A stretch of DNA of 64,000 nt from Kappaphycus alvarezii (taxonomy: Eukaryota; Rhodophyta; Florideophyceae; Gigartinales; Solieriaceae): contig NADL03000629.1 in the NCBI GenBank assembly GCA_002205965.3, positions 1,240,001 through 1,304,000 of the forward strand, read 5' to 3'. Numbering within the stretch: position 1 is the first letter of the stretch; each line of letters begins with the position of its first letter. The position numbers and the translations under genes were made by a program. This document shows positions 38,465 to 59,336 of the stretch, piece by piece. The notes under the pieces were generated by a model. It was not told the origin of the DNA, did not search any database, and worked only from the letters and a program-made list of their open reading frames with translations.

Positions 38465-38507
38465 TTCGCGAATTAAGACCAAGTGCTAGACACAATGAGC
38501 AGCCCAA

Positions 38508-39429: not shown

Positions 39430-40161
39430 TGTATAGTAGAATATACTGGAAGGTCCACGCATCGGTGGGGGTTTTAGAAGCGAGGCTTCTTCGGGAGACC
39501 AGTCTAGCTGGGCTAGACAGCTACGAAAGTAGCAGGGTAGAGCGACCGTAGGTCGCGCTCGAAAAGGACTAGGAGGACGCAGGATCCTCCAGGTGGGCCT
39601 GGAGTGGGATTTGAGAAGGAAAAAGGGAGAAAAGGAGAAAGGAGGGGGAGATGGTTAGTTAGGGTAGGCGATCCTACTCCGGGAAACGCCCGAAAGGGTT
39701 AGTAAAATGTGACTACTCCGGTCACTGTGTCTACTACGGACACGAGTAGCGCCGCCTACTCCGGACGCACGCTAGTTGTCTAGCTGTAGTGATCCCGTGC
39801 AGCGCTAGGCTTGCCGGTCACTCAACTAGGCAAAACCTAGAAAAATACACCGACTACTCCGGTCTCGGTGGTGCTGGTCAGGGAATTTTGGGGATGGAAG
39901 TTGGTCATTGGTTTTGGTTTACTGGTAGGGTCCTAAGGCCGACGGCCCTAAGTAGTAACGGTGCCAACTACTGTGGCACTGTCAGCTAATTAGTCCTACA
40001 GTAATTACTAAAATAAAGGGATAATTAAGGGAATAAATGTAATTGCCTTGGCCCTACACGTGGCTAATCACACGTGGCACGTGTGCCCGGGACAGGGCAG
40101 CCTGTCCGTACTGTAGTGAGAACAGTATGCGCGCGCGAAAATAAAAGGCCAGGTTCCCACA
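39430..40161 (-). repeat. Gypsy-A 3' LTR
   Basis: Pairs with 57509-58257; identity looks to be in the low to mid 90s by eye, with several one-base indels. It contains five copies of a CTACTCCGG-type nonamer (39674, 39713, 39731 with one change, 39756, 39854). The coding strand start is TGTGGGAACCTGGCC. Confidence 0.85.
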
Positions 40162-43100
40162 TGCCCCACGCCCAGCGTCGAGCGTGTCCCACCGCGAAAA
40201 ACGCGAGGAAGAAGACCAGTGAACCGGTCTTGGATGTAGTTTGCGCTGCGCTTCCGAATGAGTAACACTCACTTCGCATCGTGGTCGGGGGTCCCGATCA
40301 CGTTGGCAACCCGGTACTTTGGGTGCCGAACTAGCTTCGCTAGTTAGCGTCAGTACGCTGATATCAATCTGGTCGAGGTTATCCTCGACAAGGTCGTGTC
40401 GGTATGGGGAGTGGTTAACCCCATCCGAATAATTTGCCGTTTCAGGTCTTACCTGAAAAGGGGGTTAGTAAGACTGACTCACTTTTCCCACGTAGTAGAG
40501 TAGCTACTAGACGTTATACCCATCGTGGGTCGCAGTTGCACGCGCGTTTCCAAATTCCGTGCATTTCCTTCGGGGTGCAACTCGAGTCGGGCCAGGTTGA
40601 CTGGTGAATTAAAATGGTTGGGGCGGTCGGGTGAACACGCCCCTTCGTTGGCATCTCAAATGCCTTCACTGGGGCCCAGTGGTACTGTGGTCAATCCTCG
40701 ATGGTTGTGCCGGCACGTGCGGCACAACCCTGAAAAACCAATAAAATTCGGTAATCGAGGTGGGGATTCTGCCACGTTACAAGGGATTTCCTTGTATGTC
40801 GGTGCACGCTTCTGCTGTGCAGTGCGGTATTTAACCAGGAGTCCTGGTGATTTCATTTGTATCCGTCACCTCTTCCAACATCACAGTCCGATCAACATCT
40901 CGTCGCCATCCGCTTGTCTTCCTTCACCATCACACATCCTCATCGTCCTTCCTCCACATCCCCATCGTCATCCATCATCAGCTTCTTTTCCTCCTTGTCA
41001 ACTAACGGACAGCCTCTTGTCATGTCCGGTCTTCTTCCTGATGCTGGATCAGCTGCGAGGGCAGGTCACCTGCCCAGTGCCGCTCCGGGTATCCCGAGGG
41101 CGATGGTTGCCAGCAGAGACTGGCGGTGCGCTTCGACACTGACGCTGGGTCCGTCGGCCAGCGTCGCATCGAGAGACTTCGTGCCTGCGCACGCCGACGC
41201 GGTCAGTACTTCGACCTGCGTTTCGCTGTCGAGGAGAACCTCGATTTGGCTTTTGCGCGTGTGCCAATGAGGCACCGTACGCTACGAGGATTTCCTCGTT
41301 AAATAGGGATGATATGGCTGTGACGAATACTTCTCGTCGGCCTTACTGTTTGCGCGGGAGCGCTCCTTGCTCCCAGGTCGTACGGGTTCCCCCGAACGTT
41401 GTTTTAGGGCGGATCGGACTATTACCCGATCTATGGGGATCGTAAGTACGAACGCAAGATGTCACACCCACGGTGTGTTCCTCTACCACAACCGAGAGGC
41501 AGAGATCCTAGACTCAGCGGCGCTGAGTGGGAAGTATGTTCCCGTGCCGGTTTGGTTCCACAAATATGAGGTACCTACGGCTTCTTACAGAGACTCCCTG
41601 GTATCTGTCATACCGCGGATTGGAAATTTCCGGCGGTTTTGCCAATGACGAGGATGCCTCGTGGAATGTCACCATTTCCGAATGGGTACAGAACTGCGTT
41701 ATCGAGGCCATGTACGAGGCACGCAGGGCAAGCTATGGTACTTGCCAAGCGCTGTGGTCGAAGCCGCACGCGAGATGGGTATGGAAGCGATACTTCCGAA
41801 TAGTCCTGAGGATGACCGTCAGGATGCTAGCGCCATGCTAGACTTCGTTGACCAGCTTCGCTGGTCGCATGTTCCCCCTGCGAACCGTATCCTGCCCGAG
41901 GTCCAGGATATGTGTACACCAGTCCATACTAGTGGGGATTGGGTTGAGGTCAACCCGGCGATATGGGCTCCCGTTAGCCTCCAGGTGGATTGGTCACACG
42001 CAATACAGACGGACCATTCGCGCGTGATGACCACGGTCCACGTCTGGTTGGTAGTCTGCGGAATCTGCCGCAAGAATCTCGCCCACAGGGTGTGGCTGGG
42101 GCGTTTGGCAGTGCCATTGGGACGGGAGCTTTTCCGTCCGCTGCTCAGCAGGGGTGTTCCCGTGAGGATTACAAACATGCCGAGCGCATACTTAGCACCG
42201 TTGCGTACAACCGTGGGATCCGTCGTTTTCGGCGGCCCTTGCTCGGAACGGGCAACCCGGTCGCATCACCATTGTCGGCGTGTTGGATCTCCTACGGAGA
42301 TCCTCGTATCTGGGAAAGCGGTCATGCTCCCCGAAGGCGTCACGTCGGCTGGACCGGCGCCTGCGGTTGTAGAGGGAGAGAATCCTCCCATGGATGAGGC
42401 CAGTGAGACCTCCACGCCGATCAATATGGGGTCTGGCGCGTAGTTGTAGTCATGGGGATAGCCCGCAATTGTTGTAAATGAAAGTCCGGGTCGGTTAGTC
42501 CAGACTCCGTTGTGAAAATACTGCTTCTTGTGTCCTCAGTATTCTGTAGTTCACAGTCCGTTGAGGCGTCTTCCTTGTTCAGCTTAGACTGAACAGTAGA
42601 TTGTCCATAGTAAAAGCGGTGTACTGTTATACATTTCCATAACAAGTGAGCCTTGTTGTCGAGTGGGGCCGTGCTCCCACTAATCCATCTGAGAGAGTGA
42701 GACCTGTGCTCACTAAGATTTTTAGTAGCGATTAAGCTCGTCTGCATACCATAATGGTCTTCCAAGGGTCGCCTTGGCAACACAGCTAACGCGAGGTTGT
42801 GGGTATGTACGCCAGCGCGGTGTCTTTCCGGACAAGGTGTCCTTTTCAAATCAGCCGTTGTGGCGGGGCGAGACGTGCCTTGTATGTGAGTCATGGACGA
42901 TACCCATGTGTATAGTGAACAATCTTCACCTGTCAAGGTTTTTCCTTGACAGTCGTACTCGATTGAGTGTAGTTCAGGGACTTCTTGAACACAGCAGCTT
43001 TGGGCATGGTTACACCCGAATACGACTCCTAGGATGGTTCTTCTCATCTTCGTCCTCTTTGGGACCCCACTCAGGTCATCCTGGGTTGTCTTCCTTCTTC

Positions 43101-43964
43101 TCGGAGGGCGATGAGGTCGTCCCCGACGAATATTTCAGGCAAGGATCTCCTCGTCCGTTTGCAGTTGGTCTTGGCATCAACCCCACAACACCTTAGCACT
43201 CAGGGGTTACCTGGGCAATCACAGTAACGGGTCAACCTGTTACATTCGTTCTACAACAAGGTTGCCTTGTTCTTGAGCACACACAGGGTTGATGTTGTCA
43301 GCGGCGCTGGACGATACTGTCTTCACGATGGCGGACGCCACCATGTTATTATCTCGGTCCAGGGTACCTGGATTCTCACGTAGTCAAGCCACTGCTGACT
43401 TGTTGACAAGCGGGGCTTGTTGACCCTGACTCTGCTTGACAGAGTACAGTTTCTCGTGGGATGGGAGTTCCTGTCCGGTGTGACATGATGCAAGCCATAT
43501 CATGAACTGGGCTCCAGAAGGGCGCCTTGCGGGGTGTAGGAAAGTTCTTCCAAGTCCTTATATTTGAGCTCAGGTGTTCCTGAGGGACAAGTGTGATCTT
43601 CTACGGCGACCACTACAGTAAGGGGGTCCTTACTCGTAACAGGGGAAGACCGACTCACCCTCTCATTCCAGCGAACGAGGTAATCCTCGTTGATACGTGT
43701 CTGTTCTCCTGTCAGGTAGCCTGAGTAAGTTGAGAGTCGGGGTACATTGCTTCCGTCCTTGCATATGTCAAGGGGGACCTTGACTCGGTCGGTGCGATCG
43801 TATCCTCACCGGGGTACGGAAAAGGTTTGCCTTATTTGCGTAGCGATCGGCAATGGATGTCCATTGACGATAGGGTTAGTCAGGTGTCCTGACGCGATGT
43901 TCGCACACGAGTTCTTTCGTGTCGAGGGAAAGTCAGGTGACCTGCCTGTAGTACGCGATAGTAG
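40162..43964. other. Gypsy-A 3' internal region with antisense open frames
   Basis: Lies downstream of pol in the element and on the opposite strand has open frames. A plus-strand frame of 260 codons at 41661-42443 contains AAREMGMEAILPNSPEDDRQ and RILPEVQDMCTPVHTSG. Shorter frames upstream, at 41022-41270 (starting MSGLLPDAGSAARAG) and 41367-41648, run in other phases and could be the same frameshifted gene. A 208-codon minus-strand frame covers 42421-43047. None matches a family that I know. The region is dense in perfect short hairpins, for example at 40372-40389, 40441-40457 and 42930-42952. Confidence 0.4.
41022..42443 (+). CDS. Possible antisense gene in gypsy-A, unrecognised
   Basis: Candidate gene on the strand opposite to gag-pol. 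Three successive open frames in different phases cover nearly all of the interval: 41022-41270, 41367-41648 and 41661-42443. Frameshifts would be needed to join them. The last frame is Pro-rich at its C-terminus (VTSAGPAPAVVEGENPPMDE). No signal peptide, membrane segment or known fold is seen. Long antisense or additional ORFs near the 3' LTR are reported in some plant gypsy elements, but no homology to those is visible. Chance is a real alternative because hairpin-rich DNA tends to give open frames on both strands. Confidence 0.25.
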
Positions 43965-43969
43965 TTACC

Positions 43970-44305
43970 TGTGCTGGAGCGGGGGAAGCGCGACGGATTG
44001 CGGGCTGAAACAGACTGTAACAGCCTGGAGTAAAGGGGGTTACTGCGGCTCGGTGAGTCGGCCTAAGGTCAAGTGAGTCTGACCTGATCGGGTGAGTCGA
44101 TGGCTCGAACTCGAGGGAGAGACGGGAGGCCAGAGGCCGGCGGTCTAAATCTAGTCTGTACAGCCCTGAGCTCTGAGGACAGTCTGTCGACAGACTGTCC
44201 TTGAGTCTCGAGACGAGACAGGCGTAGATACGACCTGAGGATTTAACGCAGATAGAGGCCATACTGGACTTGGTGGCTGTGCACGCTCAAGTGCTCAGCA
44301 CCACA
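43970..44305 (-). repeat. Gypsy-B 3' LTR
   Basis: 336 bp, about 94 percent identical by eye to 49155-49496. It contains a perfect 24-bp palindrome at 44177-44200 (GGACAGTCTG-TCGA-CAGACTGTCC) and a GTCTCGAGAC palindrome shortly after. The copy in the other LTR has lost perfect symmetry. Confidence 0.9.
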
Positions 44306-45338
44306 CTCCCCTCTTTCAAAGAGCAAGGACGTCGCGCGCCTTTTGGACCAAATGGGCGGGCATGTTTCTTGCGCTTGAGCAGGCGCTTGACCATCTCAGG
44401 GACGTCTTCGTAGATGGTCTTGATCGGCTCTGGCGAGTCTTCGGACTTGTCAAGGCCCTTCCAGCGGACGATGACTTTCAGTCCATCTTGGTCTTCGCGC
44501 AGGCCCATGAGTCGGGCGACAGACATGCCCAGCTCTGAGTGTAGGACGTGGGACAGGATGACCTCTTCGTCCAGGTCGTCGTCTCGATAAAACTTGAGAC
44601 GGGTCCCGTGGATGTCGTCCAAATGGCCAGTCCGGAGGTCTTCGACTTGAAAGACATAGTCGCTTAGCGCCTTGCGAATGCGGCGGGGACCACGCCAACG
44701 AGTCAAAAGCTTGTCTCCAGCACCGTATTCATCGCGGGCCACTAGGACATAATCGCCCTCGTCGAAGTTGGCAAGCTTGCCCTTCGACGCAGCGGCGCGG
44801 GACTGTGCACGGTGTTTGGCCAAACTGGTCTGGACGAGCGGGTGGATCTCGTCGCGGATCTTGACGAGTTCCTCGACGTTGACGCTGCGCTCCATCTGCG
44901 CGTCGGTCAACGTGATTGCCTTAGTAGTCCAAGTGCGGATGAAGTCTTGATAGGCGGCGTCGCCTTGCGGCCAAGAAAGGCCGTGACCGGAGGGACATTC
45001 GCTCTCGCCGGAGAGGGCGAATTGTTCAAGACCGATTGGACTATTGGCAGGATGTCGGGCCATTCCGTGTGGCGGATCTGGATCTCCGACAAGACTGAAC
45101 GGCAGACGCGGATCAACTCCTTGCCCAGCCGTTCGACTGCCCCGTTGCTCCAGGGGCAGTACGGCAGCGTGAAGTGGTGCGGCACCTTCAGGCCCTTGCA
45201 GACCAGACGGACAGTATCGTTGCGGAAGTGTGTAGGCCCGTCGGACATGAGGCCATTAGGGACACCGAAGCATGAGCACCAGTCGATGATCGCCGTCGGG
45301 CGTTCTGTGCGTCCGTGTTTGGGAAGGGTACAAACCAC
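44287..45338 (-). pseudogene. Gypsy-B integrase C-terminal half and chromodomain
   Basis: End of the polyprotein. The integrase core shows its second Asp in MSDGPTHFRND and its Glu in SNGAVERLGKELIRVCRS near 45190-45100. A GPY/F-like region follows with LTRWRGPRRIRKALSDYVFQVEDL near 44700-44630. The C-terminus VARLMGLREDQDGLKVIVRWKG with YEDVPEMVKRLL near 44530-44380 is a chromodomain-like module. In known gypsy families this part binds histone marks and guides insertion. The frame from 45063 to 44287 is open for 258 codons. Confidence 0.8.
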
Positions 45339-46540
45339 TTGTAGTCCGAATGGTCATCACGTAGCATGAGCACGTACTTGAAGCCGGACACCGACACGCC
45401 GAGGTCGATGTAGTCGAACTGAAGCAGGTCGTTGGCCGCAGTGCCGTGGACGGCCGGGCCGAATGGACGTGGTACCTTCTCCCCTCCGACTGTCGACAGA
45501 CAGTGGATGCAGGAACGGACAAAGGTCCGGACGTCCTCAGAAAGCGTAGACCATTTAAAGGACTCGGAGAGAGACTGCTCAGTCGATGCCGCGCCACGGT
45601 GGCCAGCGGGGCCAGTGGGGCAATGACAAAGACGGAGATGCATGTCGTCGGCGGCGTCTGGGATCCAGATGACGTCGGACTCCGGGTATGTCCATAAGTG
45701 GTCGTTGAGGACGAGGTTTGCAGGACGCGAAGCGGCGTGGTCCTGCTGGACTTTGGCGAGCGCTGGCCGGGACGGCCAGTCAAAGTCCGAGGCGGATAGG
45801 ACGGAAGTTCGGGCACGCGCACGATGCGGCGCAGAGTCGCCGGTGGCTGACCAGCGGGACATGAGATCCGCCCAGACGTTGTCGTCGCCTTTGATATGAA
45901 AGCATGTGTAGTTGTACATGCTGAGTCGCACGGCCCATCGTAGGACTTTGCGGAGAGAGGTGGCTGATAAGTCGGGGACGACGGCCAACGGGTCAAAAAG
46001 GAAGACAAGATTGTTATGGTCCGTATAAAGGTCGAAGCCGTCGGGAGTAGCGACGATCCAATGCATGCGGTCCAAAGTGGTCATGACGGCGTAGGCTTCC
46101 TTTTCCAAGACTGACCAGCCAAGTTGGGTCGCGTCGAAGCGACCGGAGAGGAACGCGAGCGGAGCGTGGGACTGCTCCGCGTGAGGCCGTTGGACTTGAT
46201 CGTGTGGGACCTGGGTGAGGATCCCAGACCAGGCCGTATCGGACGCGTCGGTGTACACGCACAACTGCTGCGACTTGTCGCGGTGTGCGAGCGTGACCTG
46301 ATGGGCTAGTGCATGTTTGCACGACTCAAAAGCGTCCAGTTCGGCCTTGCCCCATCCGAGCGTTGAAAGTTGAACGCTCGTGACGGCGCGTTTCGTCCGT
46401 TTGCCCGAATGGTCATAAACGCGTTCCATGAACTCGTGCAGCGGCGCGACGAGTTCGGTGAAGTTGGGTATGCCCTGCTTGACCCACTGCAGGGCACATA
46501 CGAATTGCTGCAGGTTGGCCCCATTGGTCGGCGGTTCCAT
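45188..46540 (-). CDS. Gypsy-B RNase H and integrase N-terminal half
   Basis: A 450-codon open frame, the longest in the window. It begins within the RT connection (ALQWVKQGIPNFTELVAPLH). RNase H follows with its first catalytic Asp in LCVYTDASDTAWSGIL near 46270 and the conserved Glu in LGWSVLEKEAYAVMTTLDR. A third Asp is in YTDHNNLVFLFDPL near 46000. After a linker comes the zinc-binding H2C2 of integrase (LCHCPTGPAGHRG ... SCIHC) near 45640-45500. The first integrase Asp is in LLQFDYIDLGVSV near 45420. A frameshift near 45330 separates the rest of the integrase. RNase H removes the RNA template; the integrase inserts the DNA copy. Confidence 0.85.
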   Translation of the reverse strand: MEPPTNGANLQQFVCALQWVKQGIPNFTELVAPLHEFMERVYDHSGKRTKRAVTSVQLSTLGWGKAELDAFESCKHALAHQVTLAHRDKSQQLCVYTDASDTAWSGILTQVPHDQVQRPHAEQSHAPLAFLSGRFDATQLGWSVLEKEAYAVMTTLDRMHWIVATPDGFDLYTDHNNLVFLFDPLAVVPDLSATSLRKVLRWAVRLSMYNYTCFHIKGDDNVWADLMSRWSATGDSAPHRARARTSVLSASDFDWPSRPALAKVQQDHAASRPANLVLNDHLWTYPESDVIWIPDAADDMHLRLCHCPTGPAGHRGAASTEQSLSESFKWSTLSEDVRTFVRSCIHCLSTVGGEKVPRPFGPAVHGTAANDLLQFDYIDLGVSVSGFKYVLMLRDDHSDYKWFVPFPNTDAQNARRRSSTGAHASVSLMASCPTGLHTSATILSVWSARA

Positions 46541-46582
46541 CGTCAGAAGGCCTTCCAGACGGCGGGGTCGTAGCGGACGCCC

Positions 46583-47210
46583 TCAGCGGACAAGTGGCGG
46601 CCGCACCAACGGACTTCCGTCGCGAAGATCGTGCACTTCGCGGGGCAGCTTGAGGTTGTACTCCGCGCAGACCTTGAAGAACTTCTCGATTGACTGCATC
46701 AGCCCGTCGACGGTCGGTGCGTGGAGGAGTATGTCGTCCAGCCAGCTGAGCAAGTTGGCCTTAAGGTCGTCGGGGATGATGCCCGAGATGGACGACTGGA
46801 GGTGAGTGACCGCGTTGGTCGTTCCGTGCAGCACGCGCGTCGGGGTGAAGATCCCGTCTGGCGTTATGAACGACTGACACTCTCTCGACTGTAAAGCCAA
46901 CAACAGCTGCCAGTAGCTGTGAGAGAAGTCGAAGGTTGCGAAGAACCTCGACAAGGCCACTTTGGTCAGCTCATGCACGATGTTCGGCATCGGGTACATG
47001 TGCCGGATGGTGAAGAAGTTCACCGGGCGGGTATCGACGGTGAACCTGAAGAGGTCCGCGGAGCCAGGCTTCGGCACGAGTAGCGGTGCGCTGGCCCACT
47101 TGGACGTAGGGTTCGGATACGCGAGGCCGTGTCGGACAAGATCCTTGACAAACTTGTCGAGGAATTCGCGCTGCTCTTGCGAGTAGTTGCGCAGGGACCT
47201 TCACGGGCTT
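46583..47210 (-). pseudogene. Gypsy-B reverse transcriptase
   Basis: RT palm and fingers of gypsy-B. The frame at 47077-46583 contains FRFTVDTRPVNFFTIRHMYP, the first catalytic Asp in FFATFDFSHSYWQL, the block ECQSFITPDGIFTPTRVLHG and the catalytic LLSWLDDILLH near 46740. It copies element RNA to DNA in the virus-like particle. The frame shifts near 46580 before entering the thumb and RNase H. An upstream shift near 47080-47200 separates it from the protease region. Confidence 0.85.
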
Positions 47211-47329
47211 GGCATCCGGGTGAGCTCAATCTTGAGCGGGGGAGGCGCGCAGCCGGACCAGAAGAGAAAGATGTGCGGAAGATGTCCGTATGGCCGGCCA
47301 GGAGCTTGGCGAGCGCGGGACGTCTGTCT

Positions 47330-47990
47330 TCAGCCAGGCCGTTCTCGAAGGCCTTTTTCTGCATCTCGTCCAGTGCGGTCTTGATGTCTTCGTGCTGTCC
47401 GAGTCGATCGGTCCAGCAGGGACGGATCCGGTAGCGGATCGTCATCAGCACGTGCGCTGAAGTAGTTGACCCTCGGGCGATTGGGGTCGGCCGCTGGCGG
47501 AACGCCGACTTCTTCATTGCTGACTCGGTTGAGTCGCGCGAGCATCAGTCGGCTGACTTGTCCACCATGGGCCGTTGGCAGCAGGTCGGGGCTGCAGTCG
47601 GTCCCGTCGAGGGACGAAAGGCGCTCCTCGAGAAGTGTCTTTGTGTCGACACGGAGGTGGCGCAGGACCGGGCGGCCGATCAACATGTCCTCACAGGCCA
47701 ACGCGTCGTCGGTATGATAAAGCGGAGGTTCTTGAGCGCGAGGCGACCAGACGCCAAGTTGAGGACCGTTGTAGGGACACTCCAAGCGCGGGAGAACTCG
47801 TAAGTCTTCGGCTCTTCGTCCTTTTTGGTCAGCGCAACTTGAAGTTTGACCGTGTCGATGGCCTGGATTTTCCCAATGCCCTTGAGCGCCGCGCGTTCGG
47901 CGACGGGCGGCGTGGCGATGTTTTCGTCGCTGCCGTCATCGCAGCGGCCGACGAAATCGAGATGAGTCTTGAAGTCCGAAACGGTCATGA
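47330..47990 (-). pseudogene. Gypsy-B aspartic protease region
   Basis: The frame at 47988-47680 reads HLDFVGRCDDGSDENIATPP, in which DDGSD is the likely catalytic Asp-Ser/Thr-Gly variant. It continues FSRAWSVPTTVLNLASGRLALKNLRF. The overlapping frame at 47785-47330 completes the fold with ACEDMLIGRPVLRHLRVDTK, the usual hydrophobic-hydrophobic-Gly partner motif. The protease would cleave the polyprotein. One frameshift near 47700 breaks it. Confidence 0.7.
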
Positions 47991-49055: not shown

Positions 49056-49154
49056 AGTGCTTTTTGTGTTGACCTTTTGGACTGTCCTCTTGACTTTTTG
49101 TCCGTCTCCGTCAGTTGTGTCTCACAATCCTCTCGAGGATAGCGAAGTGATCAC

Positions 49155-49496
49155 TGCGCTGGCGTGGGGGAAGCGCGCGACGGATTGCGGGCTGAAACAG
49201 ATTGTAACAGCCTGGAGTAAAGGGGGTTTACTGCGGCTCGGTGAGGCGGCCTAAGGTCAAGTGAGTCTGAGCTGATCGGGTGGGATCGATGGCTGGAACT
49301 CGAGGGAGAGACGGGAGGCCAGAGGACGGCAGTCTACATCTAGTCTGTACCGCCCTGAGCTCTGAGGGACAGTCCGTCCGACAGACTGTCCTTGAGTCTC
49401 GAGACGAGACAGGCGTAGATACGACATGAGGATTTAACGCAGATAGAGGCCATACTAGACTTGGTGGCTGTGCACGCTCAAGTGCTCAGCACCACA
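49155..49496 (-). repeat. Gypsy-B 5' LTR
   Basis: 342 bp, TG..CA ends, followed outward by TTACC (target duplication). On the coding strand it starts TGTGGTGCTGAGCACTTG. I did not find a convincing TGG-type tRNA primer site directly after it. Confidence 0.88.
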
Positions 49497-49501
49497 TTAC
49501 C

Positions 49502-50700
49502 GCATACGTTGACGACGAGAAGAGAGTAAGGGGATTCCTTGCTGGAACTCGGACGGTGTTGGCAGTTTGCGCGTCCGGAAGGGGTAATGTCAGCGAATCC
49601 TGAACGGTATGATGGACAAACATTGCCATCATGAGGGCAAGGAGTCCTCGCCGACTTCCGCGAGGGAGGACAAGAGTTGGGCGTGGTACGCGGGAAAGAG
49701 AGGAGTCAGGTGTTCCTGAACGAACAACGGTAATACGACAGGGGTACTCTGTAGTAGAGTGAGGTGCAAGAGGTGACTCTGCCCTGTTCAACTCAAGGAG
49801 CCTGAGTGTTGGTGTCGAGTTAAACTCGATTTTCGCTCGCTGGGCAAGGAAGTCCTTGCCATTTTCGACCACCAAGTTGTGGAGGGTCGTGTTGGGGCTT
49901 CCAGAGTCAGGGTATCCTGACTTTGACTGAAGAGCGATCTCGTCGTTCGGAGTTTCGTTGTGCCAACTCATGTTGGAAAATATCGCACACCCCGCGCTCG
50001 AGGGTTCCGTAGTGGGAGGAGTTCCTCCCAAGCCTTCAATTGACTCATGGATTCTTGACCAGCTGTCCTTGCTGGCGGTGTACAGTTGTACAGATGTACA
50101 CTTGAGCAGGTATCCAAGTGTACTTAGGACAGGTTTCCTGACCAGTGTGCCTGTCGTTGCTGTACCGAAATTGGGCTTGGCACTTGGTAATTTCAAAACC
50201 AACTCTGCTGGTTGCTCAACTCTCAAGTCAATGTCTCAGAGTTCATCAACTCAGAGGAGGTAGGCCTCCTCAGATAGAAGTACTACGACCAAGTCGTATG
50301 TAGTTAGGATACCTAACTGATATAAGGTCAGCACCGGGTACCGGTGTTCGACTATAACATACACAGGAGTGTCCCTGTTGGGAGTATAGTACGGTTGCCC
50401 TATACAATACGAAGGTGGAGGTGGTCCTCCACATAGCAACGTAATTCGCCATGGTTATAAACCATTATCAGGTAGTCCTGATAGACGGATGTGTCTTCTT
50501 ATAAAAGTCGTCCCCACCAGGTAATCCTGGTTGTTTCACCACAGTAACTAGGAATCTAGTCTGCGCCAGCGCGAGCAGGTCCCCCCCCACTCCCCGCGTG
50601 AAACACCAGGGTGCCTGGTTAACAGTGATCCAATGGGGATGTCCCCATTGGTGTTACCCAAGGATCTCCTTGTTGTTTGGCCATCTGGTTTTCACTCAGA
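49502..50700. other. Gypsy-A region downstream of chromodomain, with a minus-strand ORF
   Basis: A minus-strand frame of about 240 codons (50226 to about 49502, then running into the gypsy-B LTR) sits where an env-like gene would be. It has Asn-x-Ser/Thr sites and one hydrophobic stretch (GLLALMMAMFVHHTV) but no signal peptide, so the env idea is weak. Before gypsy-B inserted, the frame would have continued into 43.96 kb. Hairpins are dense here, including the 9-bp stem at 50630-50651. Confidence 0.35.
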
Positions 50701-50723
50701 TGGAGGGTAGTACTGAGGTGGTC

Positions 50724-51302
50724 TCAGCCGCTTGCGTCGTGGTACTGCGCCACCGCGTTGTAAGGGATTGACGACCTGGGTTCCCAGGTATCATCACTGG
50801 GTGAATAGTTCGTCCAGCGGACGCGGTACAATCCGCTGTCAAGATCGTGATCGACTATCCGATCGAATGCATAGGGACCAAGGTCACCCGGAACTTCGAT
50901 GAGGTCTCTCACTTTCCTCTGCCATCGGGGTACCCGATGCAGGCGAATCTTCATTAGTCCGAGGTGTCCTCGGTTGTCCCTGCCCTTGTGCAGCAAGGCG
51001 GGAGGAACGACGAAGCGTCGCTCGTGTGGATTGTCATCCACGTCGGGGGTGTGATCCCTCCGACCTAAACGAAGAAGCGGGGCTTCTTGTTCTTGTTCTG
51101 CGGTGGGGTTTGGGTTCTCCACCGTTATCGACTCAGGGTATCCTGAGATGATTCCGTCCCTTGCTGAGAAGGGGACGGGTTGTGACTCCCGAGTCAGGGA
51201 TGTCCTGACTTCCTTGAATATCAGTTGTAACTGATTGATTTGCACTCGGCATTGACCGAGTAGGTGCCTTCGATATGCGGTCTTGAGATACCGTATCCTC
51301 AA
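50724..51302 (-). pseudogene. Gypsy-A chromodomain region
   Basis: The end of gypsy-A pol. The sequence YAFDRIVDHDLDSGLYRVRW, then TNYSPSDDTWEPRSSI, near 50880-50760 is a clear chromodomain core with the aromatic cage candidates Y, W and W. An upstream frame (51345-51133) holds the link from integrase: VVRVTSHTVTILRDGL is the GPY/F-like barrel. Known chromoviral elements use this module to target heterochromatin. The frames are joined by shifts. Confidence 0.8.
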
Positions 51303-51341
51303 GTCCGTCTCGAAGGATGGTCACTGTATGTGAGGTGACCC

Positions 51342-52461
51342 TCACAACGGGGTATGGACCCAGCGCCTTCGTTCGGAGCTTGTGCTCCGGTAGATTGTCA
51401 ACCGGCTCGTTGCTCGGCGCGTTTGCTCATCGCTCTTTGTCCTCTCGCGGCTGACAAAGACCGAGTCACCCACTGAGATATCCTCAGTACTGGGTCGCAA
51501 GCGTCGATCGTAATCACGCTTGTATGCACGTTGAGCTTTGCTCAACTTCTTCTTTGAAGTTGCCAAAAGGGCCTTCAAACGATCGTAGAAGCGTCGCTTC
51601 ACTTGGCTCGGATGTACATCCTCGAGCTCAATTGACCTCACTCCCTTCAAGGCGAGTGGGTTAGGGCCCGACTGAGCACCAGCTCAAATGGGGTGTGACC
51701 GGTTGCCCGGTGCACGTATTGTTGTAACCGTAGGTTACAGTTGAGTGGAACTGGTCCCAGTCCTGCCATGCTCACTGCAAAAGTGACGCAAGGCCGACAG
51801 GATTGTCCTGTTGAATCTTTCCGTCTGACCATTGGTCTGCGGATGATAGGCCGTCGTAAACAGGTTACGCGTGCCCAAGACAGAGCAATGCTCTGGAAGA
51901 ACTTGCTGACGAACTGACCCCGTTGTCAGATAGCAAATATACGGGACTCCCGTATACGAACACCCATTCTTCGCAGAATGCTTTGGTGATCGTCACTGCG
52001 GTAACGTTCCGCAATGGAACTGTTCGAACAAGCTTCGAAAATCTATCCGTGATGACCAACAGATATCGATAGCCCAAGGAAGTCCTTGGTAAGGGACCGA
52101 GGATGTCGATCCCCACAAACTCGAGTGGGCTCGAGGCTGGGAATAACTTGAGGAAGTTCGCATGCTTCCTAAGAGCGATCCGCTCTTTCGCGCAGCTCGT
52201 ACATTGCCGCACGGTATTGTAGACGTCCAGCGCCATGCTGGGCCAATAAAAAGTACGACGTAAGGTCATGTACATTCTTGTTCCTCCGGGATGCCCGGAC
52301 ATCTTTGCGTAATGAGATATCATTAACACGCGCGAGCGTAGCGACGATGGTACGTAGATCTGTACTGAGTCGTCGATCTTCGCTAGGCGCACGACCAGTC
52401 CACGCTGGTCGATCGTAAAGTCACGAACTTTACGTTCGTCAGTGGTGAAGGCGTCCTTCAC
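51342..52461 (-). pseudogene. Gypsy-A integrase
   Basis: Integrase of gypsy-A in three frames. The H2C2 zinc module includes HYAKMSGHPGGTRMYMTL and QCTSCAKERIAL near 52330-52180. The first catalytic Asp is in EFVGIDILGPLPRTSLGY near 52110. The second is in VYLLSDNG near 51925. After a shift, the Glu is in TAYHPQTNGQTERFNRT near 51860-51810. The C-terminal basic region (AYKRDYDRRLRPSTEDISVG) lies near 51530-51470. This enzyme joins the DNA copy to the target. Confidence 0.85.
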
Positions 52462-52597
52462 TTCCTTACAGAAGTTATCCTTCTCTTTTCTCGGAGGATC
52501 TCCTCCGTTGTGAGCGGTTCCAGCTCACACGCTGGCTCGTTACCGAGATCGCGTCAAACGAGACTAACTCGTGTCCAGACTGTCTTCACAGTCGATG

Positions 52598-54060
52598 TCA
52601 TCGAGGTCCATGACACTCGATGGATCCGACGCAGGCTCCCTGCGTTTGGAAACAACACGTCGGAATGTTCCGTGTTTCAGCAAGGGTGGCCTTGCTTCGT
52701 TTAGGAGTTGGGAAAGTCCCAATCCAATCCGAAGGAACATTCTTCAAGGACTGAGGACTCCTCCTCAGCTTCGACCAGGAAGCAAGGTACTTCCCAATCT
52801 CCGGCGAACTCCGTTTCGCCCTCGTATGCAACCGAGACATAGCATCTGCTATTTGATTCTTCACCCCCTTTCGGTATCCAAGGGTGAAGTCGAATTCAAG
52901 GAGGCGTAACCTCCAGCGAGCCAACCGACCTGGTGTCGGTGGATGTCATCAACCAGCGTAACGCCTGGTGATCTGTGAAGAGTTGGAATTCTTCCCCTTC
53001 AAGGTACGGGCGGAGCAGTTGTACTGCCCATACAACAGCGAGGCATTCCTTCTCGCTCGTGGAATAATTTCTCTGGCTTGACCGAGCGAGCGGCTCCAAT
53101 AGCCGATAGGATGGCGAGTGCCATCCGGGTATTCTTGAAGTAGGGCACAACCTACTTGTTCGTCGCACGCATCGGTGTCGACCGAATAGGATAGATTAGG
53201 TTGAGGTAACCTCAACACAGGCGGCTCGATAAGTGCCTGCTTCAGGGAAGTAAACGCTTCCATTTGGTCAGAGTCAAGCTCTGGAAGTTGGAAGGTGTTT
53301 CCCTTCTTCAACAACTTGTTGAGTGGCGCCGCCACTCTGGAGAAGTTCGGACGAATCTCCGATACACATTACAAAGACCGAGGAAACTCCTCAGTTGCGT
53401 TTGCGTCTGCGGCGGTTTGAAATTTCACCGCTTCAATGTTCTTCGAGGCAACCTCGAGTTTGCCCGGCCGAATAACATGGCCGAGGTAGTTCACCGTAGG
53501 TGAACCACGAACACTTCTTCAATTTCAGGGAAGCTCCTGAATTTCGGAGTACCTTGAGCACTTCGTCAACATGATCGAGGTGCTCCTCGATGGACTTGGA
53601 GAAGATGATTATGTCATCCAAGTATACCAAACAAGACTTCACTTGTATCTTGCCAGCAGGATGTCGACCGTCCGCTGGAACGTGGCTGGTGCGTTGCACA
53701 GCCCGAAAGGCATCCGGCAAAACCGGAAACAGCCTTCATGACAGACAAATGCTGTCTTTTCCTTGTCCGCCTCGCGGATAGGTATTTGCCAGTAACCGCA
53801 GTTACAATCTAAGGCGGTGAATACCGTCGCCTCACCTAGGGAGTCTAAGCATTCATCCATACGGGGCAGCGGGTAGCTGTTTGACCGTGATGGCGTTGAG
53901 CTTGCGGTAGTCAATGCAGAACCGCTTGCTCCCATCCGGTTTGGGCACCAGCACCACAGGGCTGGCGAATTCCGATTGAGCGGGCTCAATCACCTTCGCG
54001 TCAAGCATTCGCTTGACTTCTTCCTTTTCCACTTCGCGGCCCTTGGGCCGGCGCGATAGG
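52598..54060 (-). pseudogene. Gypsy-A reverse transcriptase and RNase H
   Basis: RT with the first Asp in VFTALDCNCGYWQIPIREAD near 53800. The FCRMPFGLCNAPATFQRTVD block follows near 53720-53670 and the catalytic VYLDDIIIFSKSIEEHLDHV near 53625-53570. Upstream, [21 protein letters not shown] is legible in mixed frames near 53960. RNase H follows, with [16 protein letters not shown] near 53180, [19 protein letters not shown] near 53040 and [11 protein letters not shown] near 52960. Frame changes occur at about 53900, 53650, 53400 and 53100. The DNA contains perfect 7-bp-stem hairpins at 53200-53216, 53321-53337, 53489-53505 and 53574-53591, inside conserved coding sequence. Confidence 0.85.
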
Positions 54061-54228
54061 GGTGGGATTCACTGGGACTGACCCAGGGATCAAGTCTATC
54101 CGGTGTTCGTTACCCGGATTTTACCAAGGTGGCCTGACCACATGGCTTCGTGTTTGACGAGCATTGCTCGTATTTTCTTCTGTACGTCGGGGTGAGGTGC
54201 GACAAGTCAACGTCATCAACCCAACTTC

Positions 54229-54975
54229 TCATCGGCGGGCCGAGTTGCGACGGCACAGGCGTTTCCTCCTGGCCGGTTTTCTTCTCATCGAGGTTAACCT
54301 CGAGTACAGTATCGGGCATCGCGATGCGTACCCTACTATCTGGCCCTTTGCCAGGTCTCGCGTCTTGGTTGAGAAGTTCGCGATCTTAACCAAGAATGGC
54401 TTGCTCGGTTGAGTTGAGACTATGCCATTGCTCAGGCTAACCTGAGACTTCCGGTATAACCTGGGGTATGTCTCCAATAAGAGATCCCCTTGAAGGGAAG
54501 CTTGAACTTCCACGACTGTCTCCGACTCGGGAGGCAGTTCAAATCGGCGGGTGGTCCGCACGAGCTTGTTTCGAGGCACTTCCTCGAAGAACGGTTTCGT
54601 CTCCACTGATACGCGACGAAACGGTACCGCTGCGGGTCTTTTGTGGATCCGCACTGTAGCTCCGCTACAGAGGACCACCTCTCGACGACGGATGTGGATG
54701 AGTTCCACCTGCCGGTCGATGAAGGTAGTACCGATGATAACATCGGCGCCGAGTTCCTCGACGACTACAAAGGGTTGCTTGACTGTCAAGTCCCCAATGC
54801 GTAGCGTCAATGCTACCAATCCCATTGTCTTCAGACGATGGTTTGAAGCACTAGATAGGTTAACTATCTCTTGTTCGCGGTTGGCGTTAGCAACAACCTC
54901 TTCTGGCAGGCAAGCTGCCTTGACCAAGTTTGGTCCTGCACCGGTGTCAAACACGGTGTTGTATGCTTGAAGCAT
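54229..54975 (-). CDS. Gypsy-A aspartic protease region
   Basis: A 248-codon open frame. The catalytic motif is NTVFDTGAGPNLV near 54940 and the partner motif is LGADVIIGTTFIDRQ near 54740. Beyond the protease fold the frame carries a linker (RFELPPESETVVEVQASLQG) that usually joins protease to RT in gypsy elements. It is the best-preserved open frame in gypsy-A. Confidence 0.8.
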   Translation of the reverse strand: MLQAYNTVFDTGAGPNLVKAACLPEEVVANANREQEIVNLSSASNHRLKTMGLVALTLRIGDLTVKQPFVVVEELGADVIIGTTFIDRQVELIHIRRREVVLCSGATVRIHKRPAAVPFRRVSVETKPFFEEVPRNKLVRTTRRFELPPESETVVEVQASLQGDLLLETYPRLYRKSQVSLSNGIVSTQPSKPFLVKIANFSTKTRDLAKGQIVGYASRCPILYSRLTSMRRKPARRKRLCRRNSARR

Positions 54976-55530
54976 ATCTTGGGTGACCCAAGTTCTGCGA
55001 CAACCTTGTAGTTGTATCGCGATAGGTAGCAGATAGGATCTGCTCGATACTCCTCCACTGTGACGTGGGGAAGGCCAAAAGGCCTAGGTAGGATTCCTAC
55101 CTTTGGAGGTCCCGAGTCGGGAACGCCCGACCGTCCCCTCGAGGGAGGGGTTCCGCCGGGGGATTCTTGTTGTGGCGGACCCCTCTTATTTTTCCGACTC
55201 CGTCGGAACGTCGGTGTCCGAGAAGGAGACATGGCGTTCATCCTTCTTTGCGATAATCGAGGCTTCCCGATGGTGATTCCGATCTCACCGGGTGCCGGTG
55301 CTTCTTGAACATAAGACGGGCCTTTCCCGTCCGCAGTTAGGAAGCGCGGTGCTCTTCCTACGGCTCGAAGGAAATCCTTCTGTTGTTTGGACAACTTGTT
55401 GTAGTTGTCCTGGACGACCCTCGCAAAATGCGGGTCTGCATCAGGTCTACCCTGATCTGGACAGTTGGGACGACGATGTCCCAGCCGGTAGCACTCAAAG
55501 CAAATATCTGAGGGTTGATCCTCAGTTGTA
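54976..55530 (-). pseudogene. Gypsy-A gag C-terminus with CCHC zinc knuckle
   Basis: The minus strand contains ICFECYRLGHRRPNCPD at about 55455-55505, a perfect C-x2-C-x4-H-x4-C knuckle for RNA binding. A basic, Pro/Arg-rich segment follows, with RKNKRGPPQQESPGGTPPSR. A frame at 55394-54864 leads into the protease. In gypsy families this nucleocapsid part packages the genomic RNA. Confidence 0.8.
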
Positions 55531-55602
55531 ACCCAACCAGGTTTCTGGTTCTTGGTGGGCTGTGTCCACGGCGGGCGCGCGGGTTACGTGCCGGTATCAC
55601 GG

Positions 55603-57149
55603 CTAACGTTGCGTCAGGTTCCTCCTGACAAACCCGTGAACGGGCTGACTCGAACTCTGTTGCTGAGTGATGCGGTCTTGAAGAGGCGATATCCTCTTCC
55701 GGATGTAAGGCGAATACTCGATCGCCATTGTGTCGAGCGGCCATTCGGCGCGCTCTTGCGAGGCGGTTACTCGTCGATGTATCCACGGAAAGGGCTGCTG
55801 CTCTCCGGGATGATCTTGGCAGGGGTGCCTGCTTCTGCACAAGGGCGCGGTGTGCGTCCCCAAGTGCTGCGGCCTTCTCGACGAAGTCCAGAAAAGCCCT
55901 CGGTTGTCCCGAGTCTGAGCGGATTGACGCTCAATTTGAAGCAACGGCTTCAAGTCAGGTAAGGATCCCTTACGAAGGCGTGATGAGGTCCTGCTCGGTG
56001 TAACCGCACCACAGGACCTCGCAATCTGCAGGCGACTAGCAAAGGCTAGCTCCGTTTCATCCGGCTTCTGCCGGAGGTTGTTGATGTCTTCGACCACCTT
56101 CGATCGTGCGATCGGTGGCGTACATGCGCAGCAAGAACTGCACTGCTCCAGGGTAGGAGTCGAATCCTCCACTACCTTCTTCGCCAAGTTCGAAGTTGGC
56201 TTCGAAATGTTCTCGGGCCTCACCCGAGAGAAAGTGTGGTAACAAGATGAGGGCGGCTCCCTCACTTACGCGATTGTTATCGCATACCTTCTTGTACGCA
56301 GACAAGAACGGGATGATTGAGATGGGATCTGACCCATCAAACTTACGCGCGCCAAGCAAATGCTTGAGGCGTTTGTAATGGTCGCCAGTATCGGCGAGCA
56401 CGTCACGACCGATGTTCTGGTCGGTGTTGCGCAGGCGATACCTGCGATACGAAACGACGCGAGAAATTCGGCTCGGGGGTGGATCTCTCTGAGACCCTCA
56501 TATCTGGGACCTACCCAGGGTTGTCGTTGGGGGTAAGTTCTCGCTCCCACGGTTTGTCCATTCCGAGATATCCTCGGCCTCGGCCTTGCGGGCCTTCTTT
56601 TCCAGATGGTTCTGGAACCAGCGATTGACTCGCTCGGCGGAGTCACTGCGGACACTCCGCGGCTTCCCACTGATGTCACAAGCGCGACAGTGGAGTCCGG
56701 GCAACCGGGCCTTGGTCACGGACAGGGCTTGTGCGACGTGTCCCTTGTACCTTTTGGTACGGGGCTCCGGCTAGATGCCGGAGAATGATCTCTGCGGAGG
56801 GCAAGCTCCCGAATTGATCACGCAAGTCCGAAACCTTGCGCTTCTCTACCTCAAGCTCCTGCTTGAGGTCCTCGAGCTTCTGCTCGAGAGGTGAGTCGGC
56901 CATGGCGGCTCCGACGAGCCGGCCAACGTGAGTAGCATCCGCTACTGTTCGCTCCTCTTTGCAGAGGGCGACCATCTTCTGACGGAGAATCGTGTGGAAG
57001 GAGTCTTCCTTCTCTTTCATCTTCTCTTCCAGCACTGACTGGAAGACAATAACACGATCTTCGAGCGCTTGCTCAAAATGCGAAATCACCAAGCGAAGCT
57101 CGGGAGGTAGTGAAACTTGAGTGACATCCTCAAATCTACATCCGGTCAA
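55603..57149 (-). pseudogene. Gypsy-A gag, N-terminal and capsid parts
   Basis: Starts at the Met at 57149. Residues about 20-120 look like a coiled coil with charged heptads (SVLEEKMKEKEDSFHTIL, then EQKLEDLKQELEVEKRKV). The capsid follows in other frames: ARKFDGSDPISIIPFLSAYK, CDNNRVSEGAALILLPHFLS and GEAREHFEANFELGEEG near 56350-56180. KVVEDINNLRQKPDETELAF then follows near 56090-56040. Several one-base shifts break the frame. Hairpins with 7-8 bp stems at 56849-56868 and 56871-56888 fall within the coiled-coil codons. Confidence 0.75.
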
Positions 57150-57488
57150 GTCTTCGGCCTTTGTTGAAACTGGGGAATTCCAGTCGACTCCTCCGGCATC
57201 GTCGGTGGTTGAGCAACTTGACCGGGTTCGCCTGTTATCGGTTCCACCAACTGGGACGATCCCAGCTTGGGAAGAGGATCAGGAGTTCCCTGATTGCGCG
57301 GTCGCGAAGTATGCGATCCTTCTCCATTGTTGGAGTAATTGACACGAGGATCTGAGGTTCTTCCCCGGTTGTTTGCGTCCGAAGCAAGAGGAATCTCGCG
57401 GTTCTTCAGTGGAAAAAACCACGAAACGAAATAGAAGGTAGTCCTTCTTCAAAAAATCCACTCAGTGGTTCCACAGGAAGGAAAAACT

Positions 57489-57506
57489 TTCTAGGTCGGG
57501 AGACCA
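57489..57506 (-). promoter_or_regulatory. Gypsy-A tRNA primer-binding site
   Basis: On the coding strand, two bases after the 5' LTR, the sequence TGGTCTCCCGACCTAG occurs. It would pair with the 3' end of a tRNA finishing CTAGGTCGGGAGACCA, that is with CCA at its end. Position and start are typical of gypsy elements. The tRNA type is not identified. Confidence 0.6.
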
Positions 57507-57508
57507 CT

Positions 57509-58257
57509 TGAAGTAGAATGGACTGGAAGGTCCACGCACCAGGTGGGGGTTTTAGAAGCGAGGCTTCTTCGGGAGACCAGTCTAGCTGGGCTAGACAGCT
57601 ACCAAAGTAGCAGGGTAGAGTGACCGTACGTCGTGCTCGAAAGGGACTAGGAAGACACCCTAGGATCCTCCAGGTGGGCAGGAGTGGGGATTTGAGAAGG
57701 AAAAAGAGGAGAGAAAAGGAGAATGGGGAGGGAGATGGTTAGTTAGGGTAGCCGATCCTACTCCGAGAAACGCCCGAAAGGGTTAGTAAAATGTGACTAC
57801 TCCGGTCACTGTGTCTACTACGGACACGAGTAGCGCCGCCTACTCCGGACACACGCTAGTTGGTCTAGCTGTAGTGATCCAGTGCAGCGCTAGGCTTGCC
57901 GGTCACTCAACTAGGCAAAACCTAGACAAAATACACCCGACTACTCCGGTCTCGTTGGTGCTGGTCAGAGAATTTCGGGGATGGAAGTTGGTCTATTGGT
58001 TCGATGGTTTACTGGTAGGGGTCCTAAGGCCGACGGCCCTAAGTAGTAACGGCGCCACCTACTGCGGTACTGTCAGCTAATTAGTCCTACAGTAATTACT
58101 AAAATAAAGGGATAAGTAAGGGAATAAGTGTAATTGCATTGGCCCTACAACGTGGCTATCACACGTGGCACGGAACGTGTGCCCGGGACAGTGCAGCCTG
58201 TCCGTGCTGTAGTGAGAAAAGTATGCGGGCGCGAAAATAAAAGGCCAAGTTCCCACA
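57509..58257 (-). repeat. Gypsy-A 5' LTR
   Basis: 749 bp, pairing with 39430-40161. It has the same CTACTCCGG-type repeats as the other LTR, one of them altered to CTACTCCGA near 57749. The outer end (TCCCACA on the plus strand) abuts the resumed gag frame of copia-2. Confidence 0.85.
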
Positions 58258-59280: not shown

Positions 59281-59336
59281 ATCAGAATCTACCTGTCCAA
59301 CGGGGTCCGTTACTAAGGCCCTCTGAAACTCCAGAC

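Follow-up and report, generated by a model that had tools for sequence, protein, structure and literature searches.

In RNA viruses, genome-scale ordered RNA structure is known as an excess of local pairing over shuffled sequences that extends through the whole genome. According to the passages on dispersed packaging signals in the source, the genomes of ssRNA viruses (MS2, picornaviruses, HBV) carry many short stem-loops along their whole length, with stems that vary and a loop or closing sequence that is partly shared (PMC6281560). In the genomic RNA (gRNA) of yeast Ty3, according to the corresponding passages, structured regions are dispersed along the molecule and stable regions account for as much as 30% of it; six palindromes lie close to the 5' end, and a short hairpin of high probability holds the dimerisation site (PMC11381356).

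The element considered here, gypsy-A, lies in a window of 64 kb (the whole stretch of DNA that was analysed) and belongs, as a degraded copy, to a lineage of Ty3/gypsy chromoviruses (LTR retrotransposons). As in other Ty3/gypsy chromoviruses, protease, reverse transcriptase (RT), RNase H, integrase and chromodomain follow one another in that order between LTRs; unlike them, gypsy-A is saturated with hairpins, a feature missing from most other gypsy loci examined in the genome, and its 3' part measures about 5 kb, none of the five ORFs tested there having a Pfam match. Yeast Ty3 belongs to a related element class, but the passages on its gRNA describe no saturation by uniform, perfect hairpins. 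As with dispersed packaging signals, so far as the source passages describe them, the gypsy-A lineage carries many stem-loops genome-wide. AGG/CCT closing pairs and A-first loops recur in family A, and locus L030 has no shared motif. The stems of gypsy-A differ in being perfect, rarely longer than 7 bp and very dense, and binding by Gag is putative. The folding energy of the lineage lies below that of shuffled controls, as in genome-scale ordered RNA structure, but here the carrier is a retrotransposon, the units are uniform perfect mini-hairpins and G-U pairs occur no more often than chance would give. No described element resembling gypsy-A was found in a literature search with narrow terms that covered few subscription journals.

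Structure of gypsy-A and of the nested gypsy-B

Gypsy-A spans positions 39430-58257, which amounts to 13,301 nt once gypsy-B (43970-49496) is left out. The features are as follows.

39430..40161, minus strand: 3' LTR of gypsy-A (element sense), with many short hairpins; pieces of 57542-58257 recur here as direct repeats (91-97% alike)
40162..43969, minus strand: hairpin-saturated 3' non-coding part, piece before gypsy-B; 31 hairpins (stem at least 6, loop 3-6)
43674..43691, unstranded: one of the hairpins of the non-coding part, as an example, with a 7-bp stem and the sense-strand tetraloop ATTA
43970..49496, minus strand: nested gypsy-B, internal control; bordered by a target duplication of 5 bp, TTACC
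49497..57507, minus strand: internal region saturated with hairpins, comprising the leader, gag-pol and the first piece of the 3' non-coding part
50727..51320, minus strand: chromodomain at the end of pol (PF00385, E = 4e-8)
51868..52524, minus strand: integrase, zinc-binding part and core (PF17921, E = 2e-16)
52952..53368, minus strand: RNase H (PF17919, E = 1e-17)
53574..53591, unstranded: example of an AGG/CCT-closed hairpin, with a stem of 7 bp and a loop of 4 nt
53642..53989, minus strand: RT fragment of 348 nt (PF00078, E = 6e-14)
54232..55083, minus strand: ORF with weak matches to retroviral aspartyl protease (PF13975, E = 4e-4, below its cut-off)
57508..58257, minus strand: 5' LTR of gypsy-A (element sense); inner edge approximate, taken from the LTR alignment and flanks

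The order RT, RNase H, integrase and C-terminal chromodomain is that of a Ty3/gypsy chromovirus, and the domains lie in separate ORFs of a broken copy. The copy is old, with LTRs 91-97% alike in pieces; TG..CA ends are present in the 3' LTR, the inner end of the other LTR is diverged, and no short direct repeat that could represent a target-site duplication was seen by eye at 39430/58257. Rfam and tRNA scans over the whole window returned one tRNA-Ile and nothing else. The stretch around the 3' LTR (39381-40200) contained 20 hairpins with stems of at least 5 bp and loops of 3-8 nt, and that around the 5' LTR (57451-58300) contained 15 with stems of at least 5 bp, mostly placed as in the other LTR.

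Excess, placement and shape of the hairpins

Perfect inverted repeats (stem at least 6 bp, loop 3-6 nt unless stated otherwise) were sought in 39430-58257 minus 43970-49496 and compared with 20 dinucleotide shuffles and, for the ORFs of gypsy-A and gypsy-B, with 200 synonymous-codon shuffles. Gypsy-A contained 267, 148, 66 and 9 hairpins with stems of at least 5, 6, 7 and 8 bp, against 48.8 ± 7.7, 13.4 ± 3.4, 3.0 ± 1.9 and 0.9 in dinucleotide shuffles, the excess falling mainly at loops of 1-11 nt. Five coding ORFs together held 37 hairpins against 4.1 ± 1.9 under the synonymous-codon null (shuffle maximum 11); the RT ORF alone (348 nt) held none with a stem of at least 6 bp. The saturation claimed by the sequence-only reading was thus recovered under both nulls, and more strongly than it had supposed. 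All 17 hairpins that it listed are perfect inverted repeats where it had placed them, two of them with understated stems (8 bp at 40440-40458 and 9 bp at 56848-56869).

Its further observation that the inserted element lacks this texture also holds: gypsy-B contained 12 hairpins (6.2 ± 2.2 in dinucleotide shuffles), and its three ORFs contained 5 against 3.9 in synonymous shuffles, that is, no excess. At the same stem threshold the flanks gave 42 against 32.9 (positions 1-38000 of the window), 10 against 6.5 (58258-64000) and, in the short stretch 38000-39429, 4 against 1.3, so that gypsy-B and both large flanks remained within about twofold of their shuffles. The counts in gypsy-A are therefore neither at the level of codon-preserving shuffles nor matched in density by gypsy-B or host DNA.

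Coding and non-coding parts are populated alike, and all three codon phases are occupied, as had been proposed. Gag-pol (50701-57400) contained 91 hairpins (13.6 per kb), the 3' non-coding part (5,012 nt) 45 (9.0 per kb), the LTRs 7 and 4 (9.6 and 5.3 per kb; one LTR climbs to 15.0 per kb once 7-nt loops are included) and the 5' leader, counted apart from the 3' non-coding part, a single one. Spacing is roughly one hairpin per 50-90 nt. In the lineage the stems are mostly 5-7 bp and rarely longer than 7 bp, with loops mostly of 3-5 nt; among stems of at least 7 bp, 26 of 154 reached 8 bp (p = 0.010 against 0.25), a proportion not significant in L020 alone (14/62). The eighth pair is clearly avoided in the AGG-closed stems of A, only one of 29 extending beyond 7 bp. 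The closing pairs AGG/CCT were found in 16 of the 31 hairpins of 40162-43969, and the tetraloops began with A in 7 of 10 cases there and in 14 of 18 once the piece of the 3' non-coding part beyond gypsy-B is included. As a consensus, family A shows AGG-loop-CCT (loop 3-7) at 96 sites; 54 of these extend outward by 3 or 4 pairs and one by more. Loops of this family are A-rich on the sense strand and, in the 3' non-coding part, also G-poor there.

The integrase of gypsy-A (51868..52524) contained 14 hairpins with stems of at least 6 bp and loops of 3-6 nt. Because about nine of these cover residues at which the homologues shown align gap-free, the insertion of small hairpin units was rejected as a general source; of the remainder, one borders a two-residue gap and the others lie in poorly aligned ends. 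In the integrase, protein identity to homologues was 0.45-0.47 over arms and loops against 0.53 outside, and therefore part of the protein conservation may in addition be lost to the hairpins.

Related loci, turnover and strand of the stems

Hairpin saturation is a trait of one lineage, relatives of which elsewhere in the genome are equally saturated. Among 20 RT loci, L020 and L024 had 14.4 and 13.7 hairpins per kb and the other 18 had 1.1-2.3; L029 and L030 had 13.8 and 7.5 per kb. Among 20 integrase loci picked by the analyst from about 150 listed, eight of the nine with at least 61% identity had 6-17 hairpins per kb, and all 11 with at most 57% identity had 0-4. Several of the loci lie on different contigs, and the lineage trait was also read from a tree that carries no support values. 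L020 has an open pol frame of 1091 aa with RT, RNase H and integrase and no chromodomain match inside; in L030 a chromodomain was found in one ORF. The L020 frame contained 47 hairpins against 4.0 ± 2.0 in synonymous shuffles, and the control ORF L018 was also above its null (9 against 4.7 for stems of at least 6 bp; 6 against 1.6 for at least 7 bp, where none of 100 shuffles exceeded 5). L030, with about 52% identity in integrase DNA, carries hairpins of equal shape at unrelated places: 2 of 38 positions coincide with those of L020 against 2.3 expected, which is not above chance, and its hairpins share no common loop or closing motif, including the AGG/CCT closing triplet of family A. Scans of GTDB genomes and viral contigs with one peptide pattern confirmed no relative.

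The stems were shown to be conserved and covarying between the two main subfamilies. Between L020 and A, about 22% diverged, one-sided changes of stem pairs occurred at 0.157 against 0.313 in control pairs, and double changes paired again in 28 of 50 cases against 0.362 expected. Covariation weakens below 75% identity: against the 59%-identical L051 none was detected in the stems of L020 (46/129), A (36/103) or L052 (21/58; null 0.35-0.36), and of the double changes in L051 stems read in L020, 5 of 29 pair. Copies at 90% identity or more gave 0 of 8. Recent private changes were shown to be random with respect to hairpins, since 181 such substitutions gained 6 hairpins and lost 28, where random placement would give 4.2 and 30.9. 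In newly arisen stems both arms had changed in 16 of 23, with no gradient between inner and outer pairs.

RNA structure normally includes G-U pairs. At the inner positions of the 7-bp stems of A, 23 G-U, 23 A-C and 47 other combinations were counted; in L020 the counts were 23, 45 and 107. Sense-strand G-U pairs are thus not above chance in either, and a sense-strand RNA thermodynamics that includes G-U is not supported by these counts. Sense-strand A-C, which is G-T/U on the other strand and in excess would point to the minus strand, was nominally commoner in L020, L024 and L029, not in A or L030, and the apparent excess shrank once double counts were removed. By a rough estimate from the counts, the A-C excess of L020 looks small after base composition. 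The minimum free energy (MFE) of the sense strand was 5.0-5.6 kcal per 80 nt below dinucleotide shuffles in A (5' part) and L020, against at most 0.8 kcal per 80 nt in three control families. Sense exceeded antisense folding slightly (p = 0.047 in A5, 0.056 in L020, 0.31 in A3 and 0.57 in L030). A strong strand signal was rejected; loop composition and the folding difference give a weak one.

Possible role of the hairpins

The hairpins look selectively kept, as if the RNA or the DNA copy of the element had a structural task so far unrecognised. The explanation that we tentatively prefer, while rating it somewhat below an even chance, is that selection keeps the genome of the gypsy-A lineage folded locally, during its life cycle, as a string of short hairpins, with packing or packaging by Gag as the most likely use. 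Selection would act on the whole single-stranded replicating form, on the density and shape of hairpins and not on fixed sites. The long genomic RNA would probably be packed and selectively packaged by the element's own Gag, each hairpin serving as a weak, repeated ligand of Gag/NC, and the family-specific AGG/CCT closing pairs and A-rich loops would reflect co-evolution with Gag.

Hairpins of 3-5 nt loops also suit DNA, and it is conceivable, though unlikely, that they act in single-stranded cDNA, or in both strands, where folding would protect, compact or time the cDNA in reverse transcription. At the DNA level only Watson-Crick pairs would count, in line with the loop sizes, with the missing G-U preference of the sense strand (A-C and G-U counts being similar among one-sided changes) and with the weak sense-strand A-C excess in L020, L024 and L029. 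However, that excess is estimated to be small in L020 given base composition, sense-strand loops are A-rich, and G-poor in the 3' non-coding part, the sense strands of A and L020 fold slightly more strongly, and no known step of the cycle demands a folded cDNA.

High hairpin density independent of position, together with the scarcity of stems reaching 8 bp (significant for the 154 stems pooled, not for L020 alone), would also be expected if local structure hid the transcript from small RNAs, with siRNA targets of about 21 nt often overlapping a stem and stems shorter than 8 bp escaping Dicer-like enzymes. This we consider rather unlikely, as most other gypsy loci examined in the same host are free of saturation and the closing-triplet preference of family A is not expected from it.

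A mutational origin, in which the element's RT snaps back on its product or uses one arm to correct the other and leaves functionless perfect hairpins, would explain the Watson-Crick strictness, the compensated changes, the presence in coding and non-coding parts and the family specificity. It is nonetheless improbable: snap-back copying is disfavoured by the changes in both arms of new stems, which show no loop-to-base gradient, and by recent substitutions without clear hairpin gain; moreover, hairpins are no rarer in gag-pol than in the 3' non-coding part or LTRs, and the bias in closing sequence and loops stands against it. Chance, base composition or an assembly artefact has nothing in its favour and is refuted by the excess over dinucleotide and codon nulls, the saturated loci on several contigs and the stem covariation.

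Selection for a locally folded genome may be cast, with the same reserve and as a plausible reading short of a probable one, as a mini-hairpin architecture restricted to Watson-Crick pairs and to about 7 bp. It would be selected for density instead of sites, would work on the strand that replicates (possibly the cDNA, or both strands) and would have been adopted independently of position by two or more sublineages. If true, the protein-coding sequence of a eukaryotic mobile element would be subject to a genome-wide structural constraint of a new kind. To our knowledge, arguments for selection on the folding of whole genomes have concerned mainly RNA viruses; the gypsy-A lineage would present it in an extreme and simple form, readable from DNA alone, in a eukaryotic LTR retrotransposon whose host also offers controls, namely related families that are not saturated. 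Questions of packaging driven by Gag, of escape from silencing and of structure in reverse transcription therefore become directly testable. The finding also suggests that the shape of the nucleic acid can set the choice of codons, and perhaps some residues, in the genes of mobile elements.

Layout and hairpin content of gypsy-A

Gypsy-A, a degraded Ty3/gypsy chromovirus-type LTR element, and gypsy-B, used as an internal control, were located as follows:

39430-58257: gypsy-A, minus strand coding according to its Pfam domains
43970-49496: gypsy-B, inserted within gypsy-A

The Pfam domains of gypsy-A were, from right to left, protease (weak match), RT, RNase H, integrase and chromodomain. Immediately inside the 5' LTR (in the sense, i.e., coding-strand, orientation), a stretch starting with TGG (57470-57512) resembled a tRNA primer binding site and is a putative one. 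A 264-aa frame without stops (41649-42443), antisense to pol within the 3' non-coding part, had no Pfam match. A diverged repeat pair (38121-38291 and 62657-62826, 93-94% alike) enclosed gypsy-A with its adjoining DNA, suggesting that gypsy-A may be nested in another LTR element. A 190-nt family was present in three diverged copies (24017-24206, 29450-29639 and 30893-31082; 67-76% alike to the first), one of them close to the tRNA-Ile gene at 30612-30685.

Perfect hairpins with a stem of at least 6 bp and a loop of 3-6 nt (the default here; elements dense in them are termed saturated) numbered 148 in 13,301 nt of gypsy-A vs 13.4 ± 3.4 in 20 dinucleotide shuffles, and 66 vs 3.0 at stems of at least 7 bp. 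The sequence-only reading that gypsy-A is full of such hairpins and gypsy-B is not was borne out, all 17 hairpins listed there being present and gypsy-B containing 12 vs 6.2 in dinucleotide shuffles. With stems of at least 6 bp, as for this gypsy-B count, 42 vs 32.9 were found in the left 38 kb of the window, 4 vs 1.3 in 38000-39429 and 10 vs 6.5 in the right 5.7 kb. The proposed codon-preserving check gave 37 vs 4.1 in gypsy-A (200 synonymous-codon shuffles; five Pfam-supported ORFs, 2868 nt), distributed among chromodomain (9), integrase (14), RNase H (5), RT (0) and protease (9), and 5 vs 3.9 in three gypsy-B ORFs (2973 nt).

Most of the excess was in hairpins with loops of 1-11 nt, peaking at 3-4 nt; beyond about 7 bp, stems ended sharply. 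The commonest sense-strand hairpin was N4-AGG-loop-CCT-N4; among 171 hairpins (stem at least 6, loop 3-8), the closing triplets were AGG in 53, AGC in 21 and GGG in 11. The 96 AGG..CCT sites of gypsy-A (loops 3-7) had 0-6 further outward pairs in 10, 15, 16, 26, 28, 0 and 1 cases, and the 50 sites in the rest of the window had, from 0 up, 39, 3, 6, 2 and 0. By the default definition, the gag-pol region had 13.6 hairpins per kb, the 3' non-coding part 9.0 and the LTRs 9.6 and 5.3 (15.0 in one LTR counting 7-nt loops). In the 3' non-coding part, AGG closed 25 of 45 hairpins (loop 3-6), A came first in 14 of 18 tetraloops, and G made up 11.6% of loops vs 25.3% outside hairpins. Since the hairpins of the two LTRs were mostly identical and some were broken by inter-LTR differences, they are older than the present insertion. 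At 39709-39850, several adjacent LTR hairpins had differing stems and a near-identical loop (CGGAGTA / CGTAGTA, sense), resembling a single ligand repeated in tandem on altered stems.

Distribution among related elements

Relatives were surveyed in the 336-Mb genome (884 contigs) to which the window belongs. A protein search with the gypsy-A integrase returned 207 proteins; among the 120 matches listed, identity reached about 70% over a portion of the query. Eight RT loci of the same genome had 1.2-2.9 hairpins per kb (stem at least 6). The suggested check on other genomic copies found 14.35 per kb in L020 and 13.65 in L024, and 1.06-2.26 in the other 18 of 20 further RT stretches. These two loci belong to the gypsy-A family (integrase 91-92%, RT 96-98% protein identity over the longest matched pieces), the pol frame of L020 being open (1091 aa); L029 is a third member (13.8 per kb). 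L030 had 7.5 per kb (RT 70%, part of integrase 60% identical), and L017 and L026 had 1.06 each (RT 66-70% identical). Of the 150 RT matches listed, six were 483 nt long; four of these were at saturated loci and two at unsaturated ones.

In twenty integrase loci chosen by the author from about 150 matches listed (1.5 kb each, loops 3-7), density was 6.0-17.3 per kb in eight of the nine at least 61% identical, 3.3 in the ninth (L038; 69%, four stops), and 0-4.0 in all 11 at most 57% identical. In the integrase tree, midpoint rooted and presented without support values, saturated loci formed a single clade, plus L030 within the sister clade. In four other loci of the latter (L040, L042, L043 and L046), the 1.5-kb stretch contained five or six hairpins (3.3-4.0 per kb), which may represent an intermediate stage.

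Against the synonymous null (stem at least 6), L020 had 47 vs 4.0 in pol and 18 vs 1.1 in the protease ORF, and four L030 ORFs had 13/1.8, 2/0.4, 5/0.3 and 4/0.7. The longest ORFs of seven control loci gave 0/1.2 (L017), 1/1.2 (L026), 0/0.6 (L009), 4/4.0 (L013), 2/3.8 (L025), 1/0.5 (L021) and 9/4.7 (L018). It should be noted that the ORF of L018, which is a gypsy locus but falls outside the clade, had a mild excess (6 vs 1.6 at stems of at least 7, more than in any of 100 shuffles). Literature searches with narrow terms turned up no description of an LTR element saturated with hairpins.

Conservation and covariation of stems

L020 and gypsy-A differed at about 22% of aligned sites. One-sided change affected 15.7% of 770 stem pairs vs 31.3% of 28,084 Watson-Crick pairs outside stems, and both-sided changes restored pairing in 28/50 (56%) vs 36.2%; the reverse comparison (26/41 vs 38.8%) and that of L029 to gypsy-A (23/36 vs 36.5%) overlap with these counts and are not independent of them. 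From L020 to L052, 14/27 were re-paired vs 36%, with one-sided change of 0.205 vs 0.299. Covariation was absent against L051, which was 59% identical overall and had 4.7 hairpins per kb (L020 46/129, gypsy-A 36/103, L052 21/58; nulls 0.35-0.36). In the reverse direction, one comparison was under the null (5/29) and two over (11/21, 10/19), and the stems of L051 itself were unchanged in these three elements at 0.64-0.72 vs 0.37-0.40 for control pairs.

In pairwise comparison of 12 integrase sequences, in which inherited changes are counted repeatedly, 0/8 double changes were re-paired at identities of at least 90%, covariation held at 75-85% (154/270 and 48/72 vs 0.36 and 0.39), and the signal faded below 75% (58/138 and 24/69 vs 0.35 and 0.37); the bins at about 45-55% gave 158/326 and 34/89 vs 0.35 and 0.32, the pairs not being conserved. 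Hairpin centres coincided in 39/48 cases between L020 and L029 (5.8 expected) and in 2/38 between L020 and L030 (2.3 expected). About 9 of the 14 integrase hairpins lay over residues aligned gap-free in the homologues shown. Compared with 32 homologues, protein identity was 0.47 and 0.45 in arms, 0.47 in loops and 0.53 outside.

Possible use and origin of the hairpins

Genome-scale ordered RNA structure is known as a trait of RNA viruses. Gag may pack or package the long genomic RNA via the hairpins, a use that fits their even spread, the family-specific motif and the lineage specificity. A role in cDNA, or on both strands, would fit as well, given the missing G-U preference. Structured RNAs normally contain G-U pairs. 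Inner mismatches of the 7-bp stems were G-U 23, A-C 23 and other 47 in gypsy-A (positions 1-4 summed), where the same site may count at more than one loop size, and 23, 45 and 107 in L020, counted once per site; therefore, the coding strand shows no preference for G-U. Among one-sided stem changes between L020 and gypsy-A, comparison one way gave 31 G-U and 28 A-C, and the opposite way 20 G-U and 32 A-C. Sense folding energy lay under shuffles by 5.0 (gypsy-A 5' part), 3.0 (3' part), 5.6 (L020) and 3.1 (L030) kcal per 80 nt; the effect was slightly smaller on the other strand (p = 0.047, 0.31, 0.056 and 0.57, respectively), and three control families gave -0.1 to -0.8 (sense) and -0.2 to -1.1 (other strand).

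Concealment of the transcript from small RNAs would fit in part, namely the density and short stems, although other families of the same host lack saturation. A mutational origin driven by RT is disfavoured, since 181 recent substitutions among L020, L024 and L029, assumed mostly post-insertion, gained 6 stems and lost 28 (4.2 and 30.9 under random placement), and new stems had polarised changes in both arms in 16/23 cases (14.9 expected with independent arms) at similar rates close to the loop (33/288) and farther out (46/350). In L029, 108 of 120 neighbouring differences were at most 20 nt apart, so L029 may be partly mosaic; such clustering relative to L020 and L024 suggests a mosaic copy, family gene conversion or local misalignment.

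The short perfect hairpins are a lineage-specific, element-wide excess superimposed on coding sequence. Between the main subfamilies they are conserved, with compensatory changes, whereas changes of recent date are random. Together, these features form the pattern of selection on structure. What is selected seems to be density and geometry, because positions and closing sequence vary between sublineages.
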